A model generated the notes under the pieces. It was not told where the DNA came from, searched no databases, and saw nothing but the letters and a program-made list of their open reading frames with translations. Positions 12,674 to 60,112 of a stretch of 64,000 nucleotides of DNA are shown here, piece by piece. Positions within the stretch are counted from its first letter, which is position 1. Every line of letters begins with the position of its first letter. The stretch is taken from NCBI GenBank assembly GCA_036365515.1, contig CM070874.1:95886942-95950941 (forward strand), read 5' to 3'. Source of the stretch: Torymus aiolomorphi. Lineage: Eukaryota; Arthropoda; Insecta; Hymenoptera; Torymidae. The position numbers and the translations under genes are program-made.

Positions 12674-23572
<10,899 letters not shown>

Positions 23573-25980: not shown

Positions 25981-26689
25981 AATTTTGTATGACGCTTTAG
26001 AGAATTGGAAGTTTAAATCTGAACGGAATTTGATTATCCTGCTTTTTAGGCACGACCGCTTCTTGGGAGAGCCTTATATTTTCACTTATAAGAGCGAAAA
26101 TTGTAAAACATCAAAAATCAATAATTGATTGTATAAAAACTGTTTTCCACCTGAAATGAGTCCATTCCCGAATGGAAATAATAATCGTACAACTATGTTA
26201 CAATCTAGTACATTATTGTAAATTATCGCACCACTTGGGCATATTCGGACATTTGTACGGGATCGTACCTAAACGTACCGAATCGTACGGAAATGTATGT
26301 CAGGGTATACTCGAAGGTACAGCCTCGTACAGAAACCTACAGAAACTTACATATGCTGAGAAAAATTATTTTTTGTCTCCAAAAATTTCTTGCCTAAGCG
26401 TACCGAAACGTACCCAAACGTACCAAAACATGCGGAAACGTACCTCAGCGTACAAAAACGTATGAAAATGTACGTTAATGTACGTGAATATACGGTGTTG
26501 TAAAGAAAATTATGAGAACTTGAAATATACTGGAAAATATTTGTCATTTCAAAAGTTTTTGTAGAATAAAAATTTTCGTAAAATATTACATTTTAAAATT
26601 CCGTATGTTTACGTATGTTATCGCATGTTTCTGTAAGGTCACGTATGTTCAATATTGAAAGTATGACGCCATCCATTTTTTATGTTAAG

Positions 26690-27118
26690 TACTAAAAGAC
26701 GATCTTTGGAGGCAAAAGTGAAAAGATCTTGGGTGTTTTTTAGCAACGTTTCGTTGGCTTAGTACGCCAACCTCATCAGGCCTTTATTCAAACACAGAAA
26801 TAAATTAACATATACAATTATTTTAAACTATATAAAGACAATTAAACAACGACGCATGAATACAAAAATCAAAATTACCAAAAATAATAAACGTATATAT
26901 CATACGTCGATCCGATGTTATTATCGACTGAAAACAATAACACATATGCTGTATTTATATACATCGGACGATGTTTACATAAAGAGTTATATGGTATCAA
27001 GTTCGTTAATAATGGGAAAATACATTGTGCTTAGTCTTTGGATATCTTCCTTTTTGTTAATACTATTTTTATTGTTTTTTATATAGATCATTTCGGAAAT
27101 CCGTCTTTTTTTGTAATA
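26690..27118 (-). mobile_element. 5'-truncated Penelope-like retroelement fragment
   Basis: Read on the minus strand, a frame at about 26987-27115 gives RRISEMIYIKNNKNSINK followed by EDIQRLSTMYFPII and a stop. This is the typical C-terminal tail of Penelope-like proteins, at the end of the GIY-YIG endonuclease. About 200 bp downstream is the hammerhead-like motif at 26747-26780, as in Penelope-like elements. Only the last ~40 codons and the 3' region are present, so the copy is dead on arrival. Its edges are estimated from where the 10-bp array stops and resumes. The family call rests on recalled sequence style. Confidence 0.65.
26747..26780 (-). ncRNA. Hammerhead-ribozyme-like core motif
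   Basis: On the minus strand: CTGATGAG, then the perfect 6-bp stem GTTGGC/GCCAAC closed by the loop GTACTAA, then GAAAC. These are the two conserved core boxes (CUGAUGA and GAAA) on either side of stem II of the hammerhead. Helix I and III partners are not obvious nearby. A GUC-containing partner (GCGTC) lies about 100 nt upstream on that strand and would give only about three base pairs. It may be a decayed or dimer-acting ribozyme. Such motifs are known in Penelope-like elements. Confidence 0.5.
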
Positions 27119-27480
27119 ATTAATGTCGGTACGTTTCGGTACGTTTCGGTACGTTTCGGTGGGTTTCGGTACAAAAATATTTGCATATTGATACATTCAT
27201 TTGGTACATACAAGTATGTTTCCGTTCATTTTCGTACGTACATGTATGTCACTGTACATCACCGTACGTTTTTGCAAGTTTACGTACGATTCGAGACGAT
27301 TTGGTACGTTTTGGTAGGTTTTCTTATAAAATGTCCGAATCTTAATCAAAACGTACCGAAACGTACCGAATCGTACGGAAAGGTGCAGAAACATAGCGAC
27401 ACGTAAAGGAACGTGCCGAAACATACGATAATTTACATTGTAGTACCGTTTATTTTTTCCATTCGGGATCTTACATTTTT

Positions 27481-27660
27481 TTTATATTTTGCAACACTTT
27501 CTTTGATATATTCATAATTCAAAACTTCTTTTACAGTTTTTTACACTTCTTCACATTTATTAACATTTTCTTACAGTTTTTAAATACTTATTAACATTTT
27601 TTTACAGTTTTTCAACACATTCTTGCAGTTTTTTATAATTTTCGTGTGATAAACATTTTT
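27481..27660. repeat. Further 10-bp phased array (fragment)
   Basis: Directly right of element copy 1, units such as ttacagtttt, ttacacttct, tcacatttat and taacattttc follow each other at 10-bp spacing from about 27531 to 27630. They resemble the array of the copy at 29702 more than that of its neighbour. No left or right terminus was recognised, so this is called a fragment. Confidence 0.5.
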
Positions 27661-28019
27661 GCGTAAAACAATTTCTAGTAAGTTAAACCTAAAAGAACCA
27701 TTACAATCAAAATAGTCGATTTTTGGCTATTATAGGTAACAAATAATTTTTCATGGATTTGTTTCAGTTTTTGTCAAAATATAATACATTAGTATTTGAG
27801 ATGTAACAGTTTTTTCAATGTCGAAGATATAAGGTTCTCCTGAATAGTAGCGATCGTATATGCCTCATATGTATAAAGAAAGTTTTCATATAGGCGCGAC
27901 CCCCCTACTTCAATATAATTTTAAGAGAAATTTTCAATAAGCACGAAGAGCTCCTGCATATCATTTCAATAATTTGCTTATTACTTATAAATCAGCATGT
28001 AAGTAAAGTAACTCGAAAT

Positions 28020-28565
28020 TTTTGTGTGATTGCGGGTCAAAAATCCGTTTTTTGTTTCGTAGATTCGTTTTTGTTTTATGTGAATTTTCGATTTTCGCAA
28101 AATTGATTTTTGCATTTCTTTTAATGATAGGATCGAGATATTTGAATCAGATCGATAGCATTCGAAAGAGCATTAAAATACCTATATTAAAAAAAATTAC
28201 ATTAGTTATTACGGTTCTTTTGATATTAACAAAACCGTGTTTTTTTTTTAAAGTTTATAACTCCCAAACTAAATGGTCAATTTAAAAAAAAAAAAAATCA
28301 TAAGAATGGAGAATATAAATAACAATAATCTGTAAAAATTTGAATCCATTCTGTCGACTAGTTTTTGAGAAAAAAATTGAAAAATGAAAAAAAATGAGAT
28401 TTGTATGTCCAACGATTACTGGAGTAAAACTGGCTTAATCGCTTTGAAATTTCTTGTAGTGGTAGATTTCGATTAGCTTTCGGCTGAGTTCTTTGGGCAA
28501 AATGATTGGTCCATAAATTTCAGAGATATGTCAGGTTAAAATTTTCTCAACAACTTTTTTTTCGA
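28020..28565 (+). repeat. Dispersed AT-rich repeat, copy 3 (body)
   Basis: Inverted match to copy 2 (17990-18530), including gcgggtcaaaaatccgt, ttaatgataggatcgagata, cattcgaaagagcattaaaa and tggtccataaatttcagaga. The shared terminal motif is found at 30320-30362, so copy 3 appears to have been opened by insertions between about 28570 and 30300. Confidence 0.65.
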
Positions 28566-28848
28566 ACTGTCATCTCTGGAGCTTTATAAATAAACATAAA
28601 ATTTATAGACTATTTTATCTATGACGGGTAGATATCACTGACAGATAGAAAGAATGACTTGACACAAAGTCTCCGGATTGACTGTTAATGAACGTGCATT
28701 TGAATAGCGTCCAATGCCGGCGGATTGATAGTTAAGAAATCGAGAAGTTGGCGTAAATACTTGAAAAAGTTCAACTTTTTTTAATTGTACTTTTTTGTCT
28801 GTCATGTACTTCTTCACATCGGAAAGAAGAAAACTTGTTCGAAATTCC

Positions 28849-29303
28849 CGGTTGAAAAGGTCTGATAAAACCAGATAAAAGGGGTGCAGAAACCTACCCG
28901 CGTAAAAAAAAAATTTGATTATCGATATATATATGGACAATATATTGGCTATATGTCTCTCCGGCTCCGGAGCGAAATATTGGCCATAGTATTCCTCATA
29001 TAATTGTTATACAAATTCTTACTTATATATAGCTCGAAGAATAAGAAATATGGGCCACATTATGAACGTTATATGGAAAATAGTATGGCCAACACATGGC
29101 TCGGGCGCCGGAGTGACATGTGGCCCACATATTGCCTATACACCGATGTATGGCCCATATGATGCCCACATATTGCTCATACTCTGAGCAATATGTTGGT
29201 CACTTAATCTTTTTTTTTTGCGCGGGTAATACCTTATGCAGTTTTTGCACTAGAATCTGCAAATTTGTATTAGTTTTCATCAAACCATTTCAACGGGGTT
29301 TGT
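28849..29303. repeat. Short palindromic MITE, family D copy 3, split by an insertion
   Basis: The left half (28849-28896: cccggttgaaaaggtctgat ... gcagaaaccta) and the right half (29227-29303: taataccttatgcag ... aaaccatttcaacgggg) together give a family D element. The 330-bp insert at 28897-29226 sits between them. Confidence 0.8.
28897..29226. mobile_element. TA-flanked MITE inserted into family D copy 3
   Basis: Terminal inverted repeats cccgcgtaaaaaaaa and ttttttttgcgcggg (one mismatch) are flanked on both sides by TA (28895-28896 and 29227-29228). Comparison with family D copies 1 and 2 (cctaataacc) shows the empty site with a single TA, so the TA is a true target duplication. TA duplication is the rule for Tc1/mariner-type elements. 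The 330-bp interior has no frame but many atattggcc/ggccatat-like words and two related blocks around 28961 and 29101 (ctccggagcgaaatattgg and cgccggagtgacatgtgg). Confidence 0.8.
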
Positions 29304-29701
29304 CAATTGAAAAACAATTTTTGATTATTTTTTAAAATATTTTTTATTTACAGAGAAAAAGAAATCAAAAAAAGATTTTATAAAATATACAGCGACTCTC
29401 AAATAAAATGTATATGAAAAAAAGTATAAACGTGAAATTTAGAGACAATTTTGTGTGTGGCATAGGCAATATGTATGTGCAATTTCATCAAGAAACTATG
29501 ATTTGAAGTAAAGGTTATTTAGTAATTTTGAAAGGTTTTGAAGTTAATATTATGATGAATTATTTTATTCATTTTTCATATATTAAATTATACCTATTAT
29601 TTTATTCATATTTTATACATAACTTAAAAATTAATACTTTTTAATCTTCATAAATGAATGTAATTAGAATTGTGTCAAAAACTGGTGCAATAATTTAAAA
29701 T
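29304..29701. other. AT-rich spacer within the repeat nest
   Basis: No frame or repeat terminus recognised. Confidence 0.4.
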
Positions 29702-30283
29702 TTTCCTGTATGGAAATAATAATTGTAATAAAATGTATGAAAATGTATAAAACTGTATAAAACGATTGGGCTTCGGAAATTTTTTTACGGTTTTATACAC
29801 TTTATTACATTTTCTTACATTTTTAACTGTTTTCTTACAAATATGACTAATTTTTCCAAATTAGTCTGCGAAAACAAATTGTAAAAAAACGTAAGGAAAG
29901 GTAAGAAAATATAAAAAAATATAAGAAAATGTAAGAAAATGTATAAAAATGTAAAATATTACATATTCTTACATTTATATACACTTTTATACTCTTTTAA
30001 GCCGTTTTGTATATTTTTATACGTTTTCTTACATTTCATTCAAATTTGTGCATATATGAGAACATTTTCTGGAAAAAACTTTTAATTTTTTTTTTAATTT
30101 TTATTACATTTATGTAGTAAAAATGTTTAAAAATGTATAAAAGTATATATATAACTGTATAAATCGTTTTGCATAAAATGTCCAAAAACCAGTGGTTTGA
30201 TACGGTTTTATACAGTTTGTTACAGTTTCGTACAATTTCTTACGGTTTTCTACATTTTCCTACATTTCTTTTTTTCATTCGGG
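29702..30283. repeat. Element with 10-bp phased TA repeats, copy 2
   Basis: Left end cctgtatggaaataataatt, right end tttttttcattcggg; both match the termini of copy 1 (cccgaatggaaataataatc / tttccattcggg). The interior keeps TA steps 10 bp apart: 29881-29950 reads as 10-mers with TA at positions 2-3 (gtaaggaaag, gtaagaaaat). The strip 30201-30270 reads as 10-mers starting tacag/tacgg/tacat. The repeat word differs from copy 1 (atgtaagaaa versus acgtaccgaa), but period, orientation changes and the shared motif ataaaatgtcc near the right array are conserved. Confidence 0.75.
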
Positions 30284-30302
30284 TTGGCATTAAAAATTAA
30301 TT

Positions 30303-30817: not shown

Positions 30818-32818
30818 CTCGTAAAGCAGAAATCAAATGCTTGGAGTATTCCGAGAAGACGGCTAAAGTTGTGTGGATATCGAAGATTTCGCCGGTTCCA
30901 GTGCGACTTAAATGTCACAGACCGGCAAGTCCGCTGATCATCGGCGGTGAGGCGATGCGACCTGGTGAGTATCCTCACCTTGCAGTGCTGGGGAAAGCGC
31001 TGGATGAGGCCAGAACAGAGTACTTCTGCGCCGGCAGCCTCATCTCGGAGCGCTGGATCCTTACGGCAGCACACTGCTGCACGCACGGGGCCAGCGGCCC
31101 ACCCACCGTGGTTCTTTTGGGTAGCAGTAAAGCCCACGAAATTGTGAGTCATATTACGCTCTGGTGTCAGTGATATTGATTTAGTACGTTTGCAATAACT
31201 TCGTTTGATATTAAAAAAAAAAATTTATTTTGTAAAAAAAGGAGTAGCAATAATTAGGTATAAGTCGATTTTTTAATAATCGACATTAAATCCACGTGGG
31301 CTTATTAATTATTTATTCCTCGATATTTATATTAAGATTTGATAAGTGTGAGAAAAACGCATATCTAATTGGACCAAACAATAGTTGACCTTACGAAACT
31401 AGTTATGACATCACTGATATAATATGTACTAGTTTATGCCCCGTTATGAAACGTTCAAAATACAAAAAGTACCGTTTCCATAAGAATCCTAAAATAATAC
31501 CTTTGTATTTACTTAAAAAAATGAATTTTAAATATTCTACAAATAATATTTATAGATATATGATATAATACAAACTAGTAAGTAGCTAACATTGAACGCA
31601 TAACATTTTTTGCTTAAAATACCACGATGGAAATGGAAAATGTATATAAATACACTGAGAGAAATGTTGTAAGAAAATTTTCTATAAACATAAAAAGAAT
31701 TACTATATTCGATAGTAAATGTGAGACAGACACAAATTTTCATGAAATTTACTACAATTTATAATACATTGAAAAAAAAAATATTGTATGTTCAAGGAAA
31801 TCTTAGTTGTTTCAACTAAAATTTAGTTAAAACAAGTAATATTTACTTGAAACAAAGTCCGATTTTCTTGAACACACAACATTTTTTTTCAGTGATAAAA
31901 ATTGCTATCAATATAATAAAAATTACAAAATAATAGCAGGTTTAACTATAAATTGTAGTAAATTTCATGGAAATTTGAGTCTGTCCCACGGTTACTATGG
32001 AATATAGTAATTTTTCCTACATCACTATTCTCCGTGTATAAAAACATGTATTTACATTTATTAAATTCCATCATTTATGATATCAAAATAAAATATATAT
32101 TTTTATAAATAAACATAAGTTTCTGTAATAAAACATATATAAATGTTAATAAATATAAATAATTGTAAATTCATGTTTCAATTACGACCTTTATATACAC
32201 ACTTGTTTGCATTTATATACGTTTTATTGCAGAAATTTACACTTCTTTACATTTCTATACATTCTCGATTTCCACCAGGATATAACTTGTTCTTTTCAGA
32301 ACGAACGAAACTCAGGACAGCAAATCTCGATCACGAAAATCCAGCTACACCCGCGCTACAGTCCACCCCAGCTCTACCATGACCTAGCACTCCTCGAGCT
32401 CTCCCGATCCGTCGTTTTCACGGACAGCATTAAACCCGCCTGCCTCCACTTCCTCCTCGACCCTTCTCTTCTCCCTAGACGGCTCTGGGCCAGTGGCTGG
32501 GGCGGTTCCTCGGATCTCTCCATCATCTTGTTACACCCGATAGTCCCCGAGCGTTGTCGTCGGCTATACGACAAAGAAGCGTTGCAGCTGCCTCGGGGTA
32601 TCGATGCCGAGACGCAGCTGTGCGCCGAGAGCAGTAAGGGCGACACGTGCTCGGGTGATTCTGGCGCGCCTTTGCAGATGCGCCATCCACTGGGCTGCCT
32701 CTCGGAGGTCGTTGCTGTCACGAGCTTCGGGCTGCCGTGTCACGCTATGATACCCGGGGTCTATACCAAGGTTGCACCTTATGTTAGTTGGATTGAAGAG
32801 ATCGCCTGGCCCGATTAA
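30818..32818 (+). CDS. Trypsin-like serine protease (chymotrypsin fold), 5' exon missing
   Basis: Secreted-type S1 protease. Exons: 30818-31143 and 32300-32818 (stop). A short N-terminal part has C-x(25-30)-C before the activation site PLIIGGEAMRPGEYPH. This is the layout of insect snake/easter-type proteases, where Cys links the light chain, but no clip domain is visible. The catalytic triad is complete: His in LTAAHC (codon 31072), Asp in YHDLALLEL (32381) and Ser in GDSGAP (32660). Asp at the S1 base (codon 32642, DTCSGDSG) predicts cleavage after Lys/Arg. The usual GDSGGP has Ala at the second Gly. The loop between His and Asp is short. No in-frame ATG precedes 30818, so a signal-peptide exon must lie upstream. 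The intron 31144-32299 holds nested MITEs. Confidence 0.88.
31653..32036. mobile_element. Foldback MITE in the protease intron, with a nested second one
   Basis: Ends cactgagagaaatg and the reverse complement of cactattctccgtg, flanked by TA on both sides. Arms of about 120 bp pair imperfectly (tgaaatttactacaatttat and mirror; gttactatggaatatagtaa against ttactatattcgatag). Inside, 31767-31894 is a second palindrome with ends cattgaaaaaaaa and ttttttttcagtg and arms including tgttcaaggaaatc and gattttcttgaacac. Confidence 0.7.
32180..32280. repeat. Phased 10-bp array and end motif at the protease intron acceptor
   Basis: Units atttatatac, gttttattgc, agaaatttac, acttctttac and atttctatac follow at 10-bp spacing up to 32260, then cgatttccaccagg, which resembles the terminus of the foldback at 17449-17609. 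The exon 2 acceptor is only about 20 bp further on. Probably a partial element of the 10-bp family. Confidence 0.45.
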
Positions 32819-56561: not shown

Positions 56562-59500
56562 GGCCGAATCCATCTCAAATCAGACAGCCCGCGTATGCCT
56601 ATTTCACCTATCATGTTGAAATAAAAATATTTATGTTCTACTCGAAAAAATATTTTACACGTGTTTTTTTATTTTTTTGTTTCATCAAAATTTCATGCGT
56701 TCAGCGATACCGAAAAATTCCGAGAAAATTCTTTCATTGAGAAAAAAAATTTTCAATGTGATTTTCAGACTGCTATTGTTTCAGCAGTTTTTCAAGCTTT
56801 TAAACGTGTAACACATAATTTCACTCAGTTTTGAGCCCTCTTTAACGGCCTTAATGTCATTTTCAAAAAAAAATAAAAATTCCACGAGCTATGCACTTTT
56901 TACTGAAAAATTCATTTTTTAGAGAAGTGCCTTTTTCTCGAAAACCCCATGTTTTTTTTGCACAATTTTTGTTGTCGTGATAGAGGACGATAATGCCTAG
57001 CTAGACGTATTTGTGAGATTCGGTACTTTTTCCCTGGGATAGCGATCACTAATGAGATAACACACAAACAAATTTTTCACGCTTAACGCTTATATATAGT
57101 CAATGATATTAGAGTCAATGTAAAGGTATTTATCTTTGTGCGTATGTAATATACATGTACGTGCGCCTACTTATAGGAGTATATGTACTAGTACATTTGT
57201 CCGCTAGATGGATATGGTTTGACTTAACATTTACAAAGAAAAGTTCGGTTTCTGCTATATATCACACATCTCGTCTTATTTAAAACCATCATCTTTTGGA
57301 AAATTATTACATATTTACACCTTATCAACTCAACTACGATGTCTCAATATTACTCAACAGAGAGAATCAAATGTGCAGACTTATTAGACAAACACAAACA
57401 AATTATTTACAAATCTAGTTCCGTACGTTTAAAACAACTTGAGAATCTTGCTCATCCATTGAAGCACCTCTATCCTCATTTACCTTTGACACCTTCTACA
57501 TATCTGTGTCAACATTGTTACAATCGTGCTTTAGAATTGGTGAGTAGTACTGACAATGAATTTATAACGGATAATGAAGTTACCGATAACGTAGTTGATA
57601 GAGATGAAGATTTTTTACCAAGTACTCCAGAACGCATTGAAGAATTTAATAATGAAATAAGTACATCTTTCTTAGGTTCTGTATCGCCTCTTAAAAGAAA
57701 AAATCTTATACATGAAAAATCAATTGAAAATTACGTAACAAAGAAGAAAAAAAAAATACTTTCAACATTGTCTAATACCCTTGATGTGAAGTTGAACAAT
57801 GTTTATGACGTTTCTATAACAGCAAATGAATCAACTGTATGCCATTGTACAGAATGGATACAAAATCTTGGTCTAGCCTTGCAAAAGTGTTCTACGGTAT
57901 CAGAAAAAATAAAAATTCTGACTTTGCTACCTTCATCCTTTACAAAACATGAAATTTTATCTTTATTTCCAGAAATAACAATGTATATGATCAACAAATC
58001 GAGAAATCTTGTTAAAGAAAAAGGAATTTATTCAGAACCAGATGCATATTCAGGCCATCCGATTGATGAAAACATGGAAAAAATTGTTATGGAATATTAT
58101 TTAAATGATGATTTTAATTGTTCAAGACAAAGTCCTAATAAATGTGACGTTGTTACAATTAAAGTTAACAATAAAAAAGAGAAAAAAGTTAAGCGTTTTC
58201 TTACTCGAAGTTTAAAAGAGACGTATAAAGTATTTAAAAATGATTATTCAGAATTGAGAATTGGAAAATCGAAATTTTATAGTTTGCGACCAAAGTATGT
58301 CTTACTTAGCCCCATCAAAGAAGTTTGTCTCTGTATCTATTGCGCAAATTATGATTTATGTCTTACGAGCTTAATTAATTTTAGAGGGAGTAACGTCACA
58401 GAGTTGGATGAAAGTCGGTCACAAATAATAAATGCAACAATGTGTTCTGAGCCATCTGATTTATGTTATTTACAAGAATGTAAACTATGTCCAGGGATTA
58501 AGGGAATTACGTTTCATGTTTTAAAACTGCAAGATGTAGAAGGCACAGAAGAAATTACATGTGCTTTGTGGGATAATGGAAACCTGATTAAAAAGACACT
58601 ATCAATTTCTGCTTTTAAAGATGAACTTTCGGTTTGGACCATGAGGGTTAGTACTCACATGTATGTAAAAAATATACAACGCAAAGCTATAAAAACAGAA
58701 AGAGAAAGTGCTAAAAAAGACTCACATCATTTAGTTCTTCAAATAGACTTCGCTGAAAACTGGGCTGTGATTCATAATAAAGCTGTTCAAGGAAATCATT
58801 GGGTTAATGATCAAATTTCTATTTTCACAGCAGTCTCTTATCAAGGGGATTCGACACAAAGTTTCGCAGTTATAAGTGATGACCGAAAACATGATTCAGC
58901 GTATGCTTTGCTAGCAGTACAAAAAATTATAAAATTCTTGAAAGAAAATTGTTGTGATTCAATTAAAAAAATTACCATCGTATCAGACGGCGCTGCGAGT
59001 CACTTTAAAAATCGCTTTCAATTAGATGAACTAAAACGAGCACCGTGTGATATAAAATGGTTGTTCTCTGCTACTGGGCACGGCAAAGGAGCTGTAGATG
59101 GTGTGGGTGGACTTATAAAGCATTATGCTACTTCGCATAATCTTCGAGAGCCCCTTGAAGAAGCTATTCAAAACGCAAATGATTTTGCAATACATGTTCA
59201 AAAATATACTGATGCTATTAAAATAATACATTTACAAGATGCTGAAATAGAACAATTCAGAAAAGAAAAAAATATTGATTGGCTTACAACTCCAAAGTAT
59301 CCTGGAATTCAAAAAACTCATATTATGGGTTAAAAAAACATGTGACGATAAAATACATTGTTTGACAGCAAAGACCGCTGATCGTCCGCTTACTGAATTA
59401 AGAACAATGAAGCAGAAAAACAAAGGTAGTAAAATAGGTATACAAATGAAAAAAGGTATAAAAATAAAAAATCAAAAAGACGCAAATAACAAATAAATAC

Positions 59501-60112
59501 ATAGTTATGTGTACCTGTATATTACATACACACAAAGACAAATACCTTTACATTGACTCTAATATCATTGACTATATATAAGCATTAGGCGTGAAAAATT
59601 TGTTTGTGTGTTATCTCATTAGTGATCGCTATCCTAGGGAAAAAGTACCGAATCTCACAAATACGTCTAGCTAGGCATTACCGTCCTCTATCACGACAAC
59701 AAAAATTGTGCAAAAAAAAAAAACATGGGGTTTTCGAGAAAAAGGCACTTCCCTAAAAAATGAATTTTTCAGTAAAAAGTGCATAGCTCGTGGATTTTTT
59801 ATTTTTTTTGAAAATGACATTAAGGCCGTTAAAGAGGGCTCAAAACTGAGTGAAATTGTGTGTTACACGTTTAAAAGCTCGAAAAACTGCTGAAACAATA
59901 GCAGTCTGAAAATCACATTGAAAATTTTTTTTCTCAATGAAAGAATTTTCTCGGAATTTTTCGGCATCGCTGAACGCATGAAATTTTGATGAAACAAAAA
60001 AATAAAAAAACACGTGTAAAATATTTTTTCGAGTAGAACATAAATATTTTTATTTCAACATGATAGGTGAAATAGGCATACGCGGGCTGTCTGATTTGAG
60101 ATGGATTCGGCC
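56562..60112. mobile_element. DNA transposon with ~600-bp terminal inverted repeats
   Basis: The termini are ggccgaatccatctcaaat at 56562 and its exact reverse complement ending at 60112. The inverted repeats run to about 57168 and from about 59512, about 600 bp each with scattered mismatches. Both sides are flanked by GCAT (56558-56561 and 60113-60116), a candidate 4-bp target duplication. The unique centre encodes a 664-aa protein (57339-59333). Total length is 3551 bp. The close match of the two long arms and the open frame suggest recent activity. A 4-bp duplication would fit the Sola superfamily, among others; the class is not settled. Confidence 0.85.
57339..59333 (+). CDS. Putative transposase of the long-TIR DNA transposon
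   Basis: Single-exon 664-aa protein between the inverted repeats, starting MSQYYSTERIKCAD. The N-terminal part has Cys pairs that may bind zinc (YLCQHCYNRA, CHCTEW, and further on CLCIYC and CKLCPG). The C-terminal half has three acidic motifs in order: LQIDFAENW (Asp470), IVSDGAASHFKN (Asp550) and HGKGAVDGVGG (Asp587). These are candidates for a DD(D/E) RNase-H-like catalytic triad. Similar FAEN / SDGxxxxFKN / HGKGxxDGxGG proteins occur as uncharacterised multicopy proteins in arthropods and cnidarians. A basic Lys-rich region precedes residue 145. The frame stops at 59333. A second frame (59275-59496) continues plausibly (KTCDDKIHCLTAKTADRPL), which may indicate a frameshift or a small unspliced intron near the end. 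Confidence 0.8.
   Translation: MSQYYSTERIKCADLLDKHKQIIYKSSSVRLKQLENLAHPLKHLYPHLPLTPSTYLCQHCYNRALELVSSTDNEFITDNEVTDNVVDRDEDFLPSTPERIEEFNNEISTSFLGSVSPLKRKNLIHEKSIENYVTKKKKKILSTLSNTLDVKLNNVYDVSITANESTVCHCTEWIQNLGLALQKCSTVSEKIKILTLLPSSFTKHEILSLFPEITMYMINKSRNLVKEKGIYSEPDAYSGHPIDENMEKIVMEYYLNDDFNCSRQSPNKCDVVTIKVNNKKEKKVKRFLTRSLKETYKVFKNDYSELRIGKSKFYSLRPKYVLLSPIKEVCLCIYCANYDLCLTSLINFRGSNVTELDESRSQIINATMCSEPSDLCYLQECKLCPGIKGITFHVLKLQDVEGTEEITCALWDNGNLIKKTLSISAFKDELSVWTMRVSTHMYVKNIQRKAIKTERESAKKDSHHLVLQIDFAENWAVIHNKAVQGNHWVNDQISIFTAVSYQGDSTQSFAVISDDRKHDSAYALLAVQKIIKFLKENCCDSIKKITIVSDGAASHFKNRFQLDELKRAPCDIKWLFSATGHGKGAVDGVGGLIKHYATSHNLREPLEEAIQNANDFAIHVQKYTDAIKIIHLQDAEIEQFRKEKNIDWLTTPKYPGIQKTHIMG

Follow-up and report, generated by a model that had tools for sequence, protein, structure and literature searches.

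The Foldback (FB) element of Drosophila has palindromic arms of short tandem repeats with a 10-bp module, and its insertion produces a 9-bp target duplication. Target duplications differ among other DNA transposons: Tc1/mariner elements duplicate TA only, and Spy elements are not known to make any duplication. According to PMC3688188, Galileo, a member of the P superfamily in Drosophila, has long terminal inverted repeats (TIRs), many non-autonomous copies and tandem repeats in its arms; approximately 40 bp at its ends are conserved while the remainder is variable, and the THAP domain of its transposase binds sites within the tandem repeats. For Foldback and Phantom, the same text describes the role of the repeats as binding sites as still untested as of 2013. 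The Mutator/Foldback element Tm1 of root-knot nematodes, as presented in PMC3169594, has composite inverted arms containing a variable number of a short redundant motif of approximately 14 bp, includes MITE-like members and makes 9-bp duplications. In insects, cgSpy of the Spy / PHIS group carries 467-bp TIRs, the shortening of which cut activity to 42-60% (PMC11304231). A first-pass annotation of the DNA studied here had stated that it knew of no described element class with the design of the element discussed below; as foldback-like transposons with tandem-repeat arms are known (PMC3688188 and PMC3169594), this statement was too strong.

The window analyzed (the whole stretch of 64,000 nt from Torymus aiolomorphi) carries one copy, here copy 1, of a structurally foldback-like element in which short units of ten base pairs (decamers) fill most of the sequence. 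The parts of copy 1 are as follows.

26167-27467, plus strand: whole of transposon copy 1 (CCCG...CGGG), with a nested repeat inside it
26167-26644 plus 27118-27467: copy 1's own sequence, 828 nt
26165-26166, no strand: left flanking dinucleotide TT (the right flank, 27468-27469, is AT)
26167-26187, plus strand: left terminal inverted repeat, CCCGAATGGAAATAATAATCG
26232-26254, plus strand: anchor segment (...ATTCGGACATTT), separating outer from inner array blocks
26256-26352, plus strand: decamer block, forward, TACCGAAACG type
26391-26515, plus strand: decamer block, forward, 12 register positions
26597-26650, minus strand: decamer block, reverse, broken by the nested insertion
26645-27117, no strand: nested unrelated repeat, not the element's own (borders given by the search, a few bases uncertain)
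27126-27175, minus strand: decamer block, reverse, TACGTTTCGG type
27199-27335, minus strand: decamer block, reverse
27329-27347, minus strand: inverted anchor, AAATGTCCGAATCTTAATC, with translation KCPNLNQ
27349-27446, plus strand: decamer block, forward, adjoining the right end
27447-27467, minus strand: right terminal inverted repeat

An element was indeed present where one had been proposed (26166-27470), but its borders are 26167-27467 and the segment 26645-27117 is foreign to it. This nested repeat was found with 97-99% identity at at least 40 other genome places, with five partial matches in addition; it is cut off on its right, as its sequence runs on in six of the seven loci read. The claimed inverted ends are exact for 12 nt and 91% complementary across 22 nt. 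Copy 1 shows 96.5% identity to the majority sequence of 27 other copies, relative to which it lacks 21 nt in the left outer block and 57 nt at the nested insertion. Its own 2-bp duplication is imperfect (TT/AT, one of two bases matched).

The proposed recurrence of TA dinucleotides every 10 bp proved to be real. In 26166-27470 there are 46 pairs of TA steps at lag 10, compared to 15.3±3.5 (largest, 28) in 1000 dinucleotide-preserving shuffles. No excess was observed at lags 9 and 11 (11 and 8 pairs), the counts at lags 20 and 30 were also raised (42 and 36), and two control stretches in the window showed no excess at lag 10 (15 and 11 pairs). Runs of at least six TA steps at exactly 10 bp occur five times in the 64-kb window: four are within 26256-30262 and the fifth is inside an AT microsatellite. 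The finer details of the annotation also stood. The twelve consecutive decamers from 26401 were counted as eleven TA and one TG, the phase described for 27241-27330 and 27351-27430 is kept over 27205-27326 (10 of 13 register positions) and 27354-27445 (8 of 10), and the switches of orientation between blocks were seen. What did not hold was the description of a strict, single array: the period is local to the blocks, but the phase is reset between them, and because phases differ from block to block, the entire copy has a Fourier power of only 0.4 at period 10, which is not above that of the shuffles. The original observation of a decamer-periodic element is therefore partly confirmed.

To define the family, a search of the 1.08-Gb source genome (21 contigs) was made with the right part of copy 1 (27118-27470), yielding 39 other scored copies of 94-97% identity among 554 first candidates. 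A first sample of 30 loci (L010-L039, with the window copy as L010) was taken, and both ends were found in 28 of these (27 in addition to the window copy); with up to two mismatches allowed, L022 and L025 showed no left end. Because its members were selected for resembling the right half, this sample leans towards young copies. The 27 other copies range in length from 862 to 964 nt with a mode of 904 nt (exactly 904 in 14 of 27), and have ends of the type CCCGAATGG. Matching 2-bp target duplications flank 24 of the 27 (TA 9, AA 5, TT 5, AT 2, AG 2 and GT 1), while duplications of 3 bp or more were found at none of them. The target sites of these copies show a weak palindromic preference: the 2-bp duplication tends to be preceded by T and followed by A. 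At one locus (L016), two copies are nearly side by side, as another right-type end is found 31 nt ahead of the copy start (840-950).

The genome-wide search with the termini that had been suggested as a check was carried out with the 23-nt left end at up to three mismatches. It gave 790 matches (388 + 402), compared to a single match (0 + 1) for a reversed control pattern. These matches are mostly left ends, because a comparison by eye shows four mismatches in 23 positions between the majority right end and the 23-nt left end. A second sample, made up of 20 exact ends on one contig in listed order (leaving out four from the earlier copy listing), holds older copies than the first. Each of the 20 matches the left part of the family (86-98% over at least 143 nt). 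Ten of them have a right end in the 1.1 kb retrieved, at 532-1071 nt, and eight of these ten have a matching 2-bp duplication; copies with no matching duplication thus number 3 of 27 in the first sample and 2 of 10 in the second. This genome contains hundreds of copies of the decamer family, a mobile DNA element with dispersed ends of one type. The family resembles MITEs in having dispersed copies with common inverted ends and a target duplication of fixed length (2 bp), and a filled and an empty site can be compared for the second element described below (29705-30283) alone.

Other copies that lacked the period had been named beforehand as grounds for abandoning the claim. All 27 full-length copies keep it, with 40-54 TA pairs at lag 10 but only 1-3 at lag 9 and 3-7 at lag 11. 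In their majority sequence, there are 52 pairs at lag 10, compared to 10.2±3.2 (largest, 22) in 1000 first-order randomised sequences, and GTAC occurs 38 times where base composition would predict three occurrences. AT-rich sequence is rich in TA steps, and an effect of chance or composition might be suspected on these grounds, but this explanation is refuted by the shuffle tests and by the period in 27 of 27 further copies, and we assign it virtually no weight.

Six chains with 71 register positions, 63 of them TA, can be traced in the majority sequence. As there are 71 such positions, approximately 710 of the 904 bp consist of decamers (with the register placed on the TA chains). The unit is roughly AACGTACCGA, degenerate and with a GTAC core. 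In five of the chains (63 positions), T is kept 61 times, A 59 times and the following C 53 times, counts that lean towards TA because of the way in which the register was placed, while one column is nearly free. The layout is the same inward from either end: an end of approximately 20 nt, an outer array, an anchor of approximately 20 nt (GATTAAGATTCGGACATTT) and inner arrays, around a short centre that lacks the period. Each half is an inverted copy of the other (palindrome score 285.5, compared to at most 94.5 in 100 randomised sequences), with identity at 289 of 366 aligned positions, and it is for this reason that the decamer blocks change orientation. The long inverted arms with short tandem repeats that characterize foldback elements are thus present.

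In a comparison of the arms, the family shares with FB a palindromic structure of short tandem repeats (in FB, with a 10-bp module). It is unlike FB in its target duplication, which is 2 bp rather than 9 bp, and none of the 27 copies has the 9-bp duplication of FB/Mutator-type elements. These 2-bp duplications also separate it from Spy, for which no duplication is known. The TA-only rule of Tc1/mariner does not describe the family either, as TA accounts for 9 of the 24 matching duplications and AA, TT, AT, AG and GT are also found. Long TIRs are also found in some Spy / PHIS elements, and Galileo is similar to the decamer family in its long TIRs, many non-autonomous copies and tandem repeats in the arms; unlike Galileo, the decamer family has a 2-bp duplication and a 10-bp unit that fills most of the element. 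With Tm1, it shares inverted arms with varying counts of a short motif, but the unit is 10 bp rather than approximately 14 bp and the duplication is 2 bp rather than 9 bp. A palindromic family with long TIRs and a length of approximately 904 bp, this is almost certainly a mobile, non-autonomous element of the foldback type. None of the titles listed in a literature search describes the decamer family, and the papers listed for its sequence letters concern other subjects, although Repbase and Dfam were outside this search and the family may be named there.

The decamer array of copy 1 is not unique in the window, as three further places were scored as decamer arrays.

29705-30283, plus strand: diverged relative with the same end type, the anchor and AT-rich decamer blocks of alternating orientation (the second element)
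29703-29704, no strand: left TT of the target duplication that flanks the second element (its partner being 30284-30285)
27498-27597, minus strand: AT-rich decamer array shortly beyond copy 1 on its right side, without recognised ends
32072-32273, plus strand in 32072-32181 and minus strand in 32194-32273: AT-rich decamer arrays, no ends recognised

The second element has 36 TA pairs at lag 10 (9.5±2.7 in shuffles), carries the anchor in inverted positions and consists of AT-rich decamers of the AATGTAAGAA type. The best scores with a matrix trained on copy 1 were 30.5 and 24.7, whereas 100 randomised windows gave a 95% limit of 7.3 and no score above 15.8. It keeps GTA at 10-bp spacing, while the remainder of the decamer has changed. 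Its flanks belong to a dispersed repeat, a paralogue of which (approximately 17785-18000, minus strand) does not contain the element, and comparison of the filled and empty sites shows the TT duplication; together these are direct evidence of insertion. The arrays at 27498-27597 and 32072-32273 scored 37.8, 22.2 and 32.5, compared to at most 10.4 in 60 randomised windows. Beside the latter there is a long degenerate palindrome (31517-32178), in which a smaller inverted-repeat element (approximately 31650-32037) seems, by eye, to be nested. A small element at 28897-29226, with ends CCCGCGTAAAAA / TTTTTGCGCGGG and a TA duplication, is inserted in a dispersed repeat of which an uninterrupted copy is found at 13816-13936; it is similar to the decamer family in its CCCG ends and its 2-bp duplication.

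The copies also bear on how the 10-bp spacing arose and is kept. Indels of at least 10 nt between copies measured 50, 10, 60, 10, 20, 10, 11, 10, 10 and 40 nt. Nine of the ten are multiples of 10 and the tenth is 11 nt; three of the 10-nt indels are at one position and may be a single event. Smaller indels were of 1, 2 and 6 nt. Adjacent decamers are more alike outside the TA (identity 0.562) than decamers in shuffled order (0.493±0.017; 0 of 2000). As indels are mostly of whole decamers and neighbours are similar, tandem duplication of the 10-bp unit can explain the spacing, and local duplication of this kind could, judging from these sequences, preserve it without selection. With regard to possible selection against indels in the arrays, indel bases per mismatches were 8/146 in copy 1, 11/63 in the second element and, counted as gaps, 23/131 in four control repeat pairs, with the block limits chosen by phase. 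CpG methylation decay was considered and rejected: with CpG defined on the majority sequence, 62/140 CpG columns compare to 87/186 other C/G columns (p = 0.74), and an earlier hint of hypervariable CpG columns came from a biased definition of CpG.

Based on these results, the arrays might be functionally passive, that is, minisatellite-like decamers captured in a long-TIR transposon and growing or contracting by slippage, with a spacing that reflects nothing but unit length. The whole-decamer indels and the similarity of neighbours are as expected on this explanation, as is the absence of a significant reduction in variability between copies at TA columns (19/126 polymorphic, compared to 85/419 for other non-CpG array columns; p = 0.24), which means that there is no significant support for a present constraint on TA. 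Three observations count against passivity. First, TA is the best-kept part of a degenerate unit: in copy 1, excluding the first decamer of each block, it is kept in 86/94 cases compared to 206/282 in six other well-kept columns (p = 1e-4), although with the register placed on TA chains this count leans towards TA. Second, the counts of T and A in the five majority chains, with the same TA-placed register, point in the same direction. Third, the diverged second element retains GTA at 10-bp spacing despite its changed decamer. We regard passive arrays as a serious contender, at somewhat worse than even odds.

The explanation that we prefer is that of a foldback-type family moved in trans, with decamers as binding sites and arrays grown by duplication; taken as a whole, we would give it a probability of roughly 0.8. 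A non-autonomous element would be cut and pasted in trans by a transposase, which would itself, or through its DNA-binding domain, recognise each decamer as a degenerate site. Spaced by one helical turn, the bound proteins would all be on the same face of the DNA. Local tandem duplication, through slippage or unequal exchange, would have enlarged the arrays, a process that would itself keep the 10-bp spacing. The part of this explanation in which the arrays act as multiple transposase-binding sites stands, in our judgement, at about even chances. A protein-binding platform, for example for a transposase, had been among the suggestions of the first-pass annotation. A mobile element with inverted ends and possibly such a platform agrees with the results, and we consider the earlier interpretation to be partly supported.

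A more elaborate version of the binding-site explanation can be envisaged. In this version, some 700 of the 904 bp would form a helically phased platform, with GTAC sites one turn apart, A-tracts half a turn away and coherent curvature; a filament of transposase or host protein would assemble on one face of each arm, the arms would pair into a synaptic complex, and the enzyme would belong to a group making 2-bp duplications that are AT-rich but not restricted to TA. We consider this version in full to be rather improbable.

The first-pass annotation had also pointed to TA steps at helical period as determinants of bending and nucleosome positioning, and had proposed a rotational nucleosome or heterochromatin platform. 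In the classic nucleosome pattern, AA, TT and TA share the same 10-bp phase. In the decamer family, 57 TA steps are at phase 0 while AA/TT peaks at phases 4, 5 and 6 (25, 39 and 32 occurrences), half a turn away, and on account of this antiphase the nucleosome reading is unsupported and was set aside as the main one. The period is moreover exactly 10, with phase resets between blocks. Bending was estimated with a rough roll/twist model of dinucleotide steps. The modelled mean bend of the family is raised (15.3 compared to 10.4±0.8 in 60-bp windows; z 6.0), as are both the mean and the maximum of the second element (17.9 compared to 10.5±1.0, and 37.5 compared to 26.1±3.0, the latter among the highest in the window), and these values speak for a bending or positioning function. 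However, the modelled maximum for the family (30.2 compared to 27.0±3.0) is within approximately one standard deviation of random, and the mean is raised as well in a flank without the period (12.7 compared to 10.7±0.8). For these reasons, strong curvature was not retained as the design principle of the arrays, and the curvature that the model predicts may be a side effect of their design. A nucleosome or heterochromatin platform is an unlikely explanation of the element.

The palindrome might alternatively serve as a small-RNA substrate, with a long hairpin transcript entering an siRNA or piRNA pathway and the decamers incidental. The predicted folds are very stable: -350 kcal/mol for the family, compared to -194 to -217 kcal/mol in ten randomised sequences, and z = -8.3 for the second element, with none of 100 shuffles as stable. 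Any palindromic transposon would fold in the same manner, however, and we find it doubtful that small RNAs account for the design.

If the family is moved in trans, as the preferred explanation would have it, an autonomous partner with the same ends should supply the transposase. At least 150 places matching DDE_Tnp_4 (PIF/Harbinger-like) were listed, and none of the 30 examined has paired CCCGAATGG ends within 3.5 kb. At another locus (L070), one exact left end is located 3.6 kb from a further DDE_Tnp_4 place, with a match of only 109 nt; no right end was found in 7 kb, and the interior was unmatched in 20 further copies. These terminal 109 nt of the family (355-463 of the locus) end at the anchor, beyond which the sequence is unrelated and carries a 199-aa open frame in antisense (no Pfam match), the DDE_Tnp_4 frame being 3.5 kb on. 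L070 is either a truncated copy or a longer relative of the decamer family. A 701-aa open reading frame in the window (57228-59333) was rejected as a partner, as it is part of another element, which has separate TIRs of approximately 600 nt. That element (56562-60112) is a separate, young-looking transposon, the TIRs of which are 96-98% complementary in pieces; its 701-aa frame has no Pfam match and 21 homologues, among them two named tick proteins, and it may resemble Sola2-type transposases. The genes of the window read as SNF2/ISWI-like (the name ISWI being a reading of frames), ribophorin I, TMEM214 and trypsin, which points to an arthropod host.

A protein search with the translation of the right arm returned three unnamed ENA proteins, from public contigs of 1396, 6087 and 1686 bp, while that with the left-arm translation returned no match. 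The anchor translation KCPNLNQ is identical in the three proteins and in the window. These proteins are evidently translated relatives of the right arm, and from the shared anchor it appears that the family occurs in other public sequence data as well, possibly from the same species. Rfam gave no match anywhere in the window. An exact 26-nt array had a match in one phage contig and none in the prokaryote genome contigs searched, and the 18-nt end had none in viral contigs. In a G+C-rich IMG/VR phage contig (L001, 3076-3106), there are three exact copies of the decamer CGAAACGTAC, probably by coincidence.

The role of tandem repeats in the arms of foldback elements was presented as an open question in PMC3688188 (2013). 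The decamer family is a clean case in which to consider it: there are hundreds of copies, the unit is approximately one helical turn, and natural variants differ mostly by whole units. A sister element has diverged in almost everything but its ends, anchor, GTA core and spacing. Once its transposase is known, the family would allow a test of whether transposase sites spaced one helical turn apart matter.
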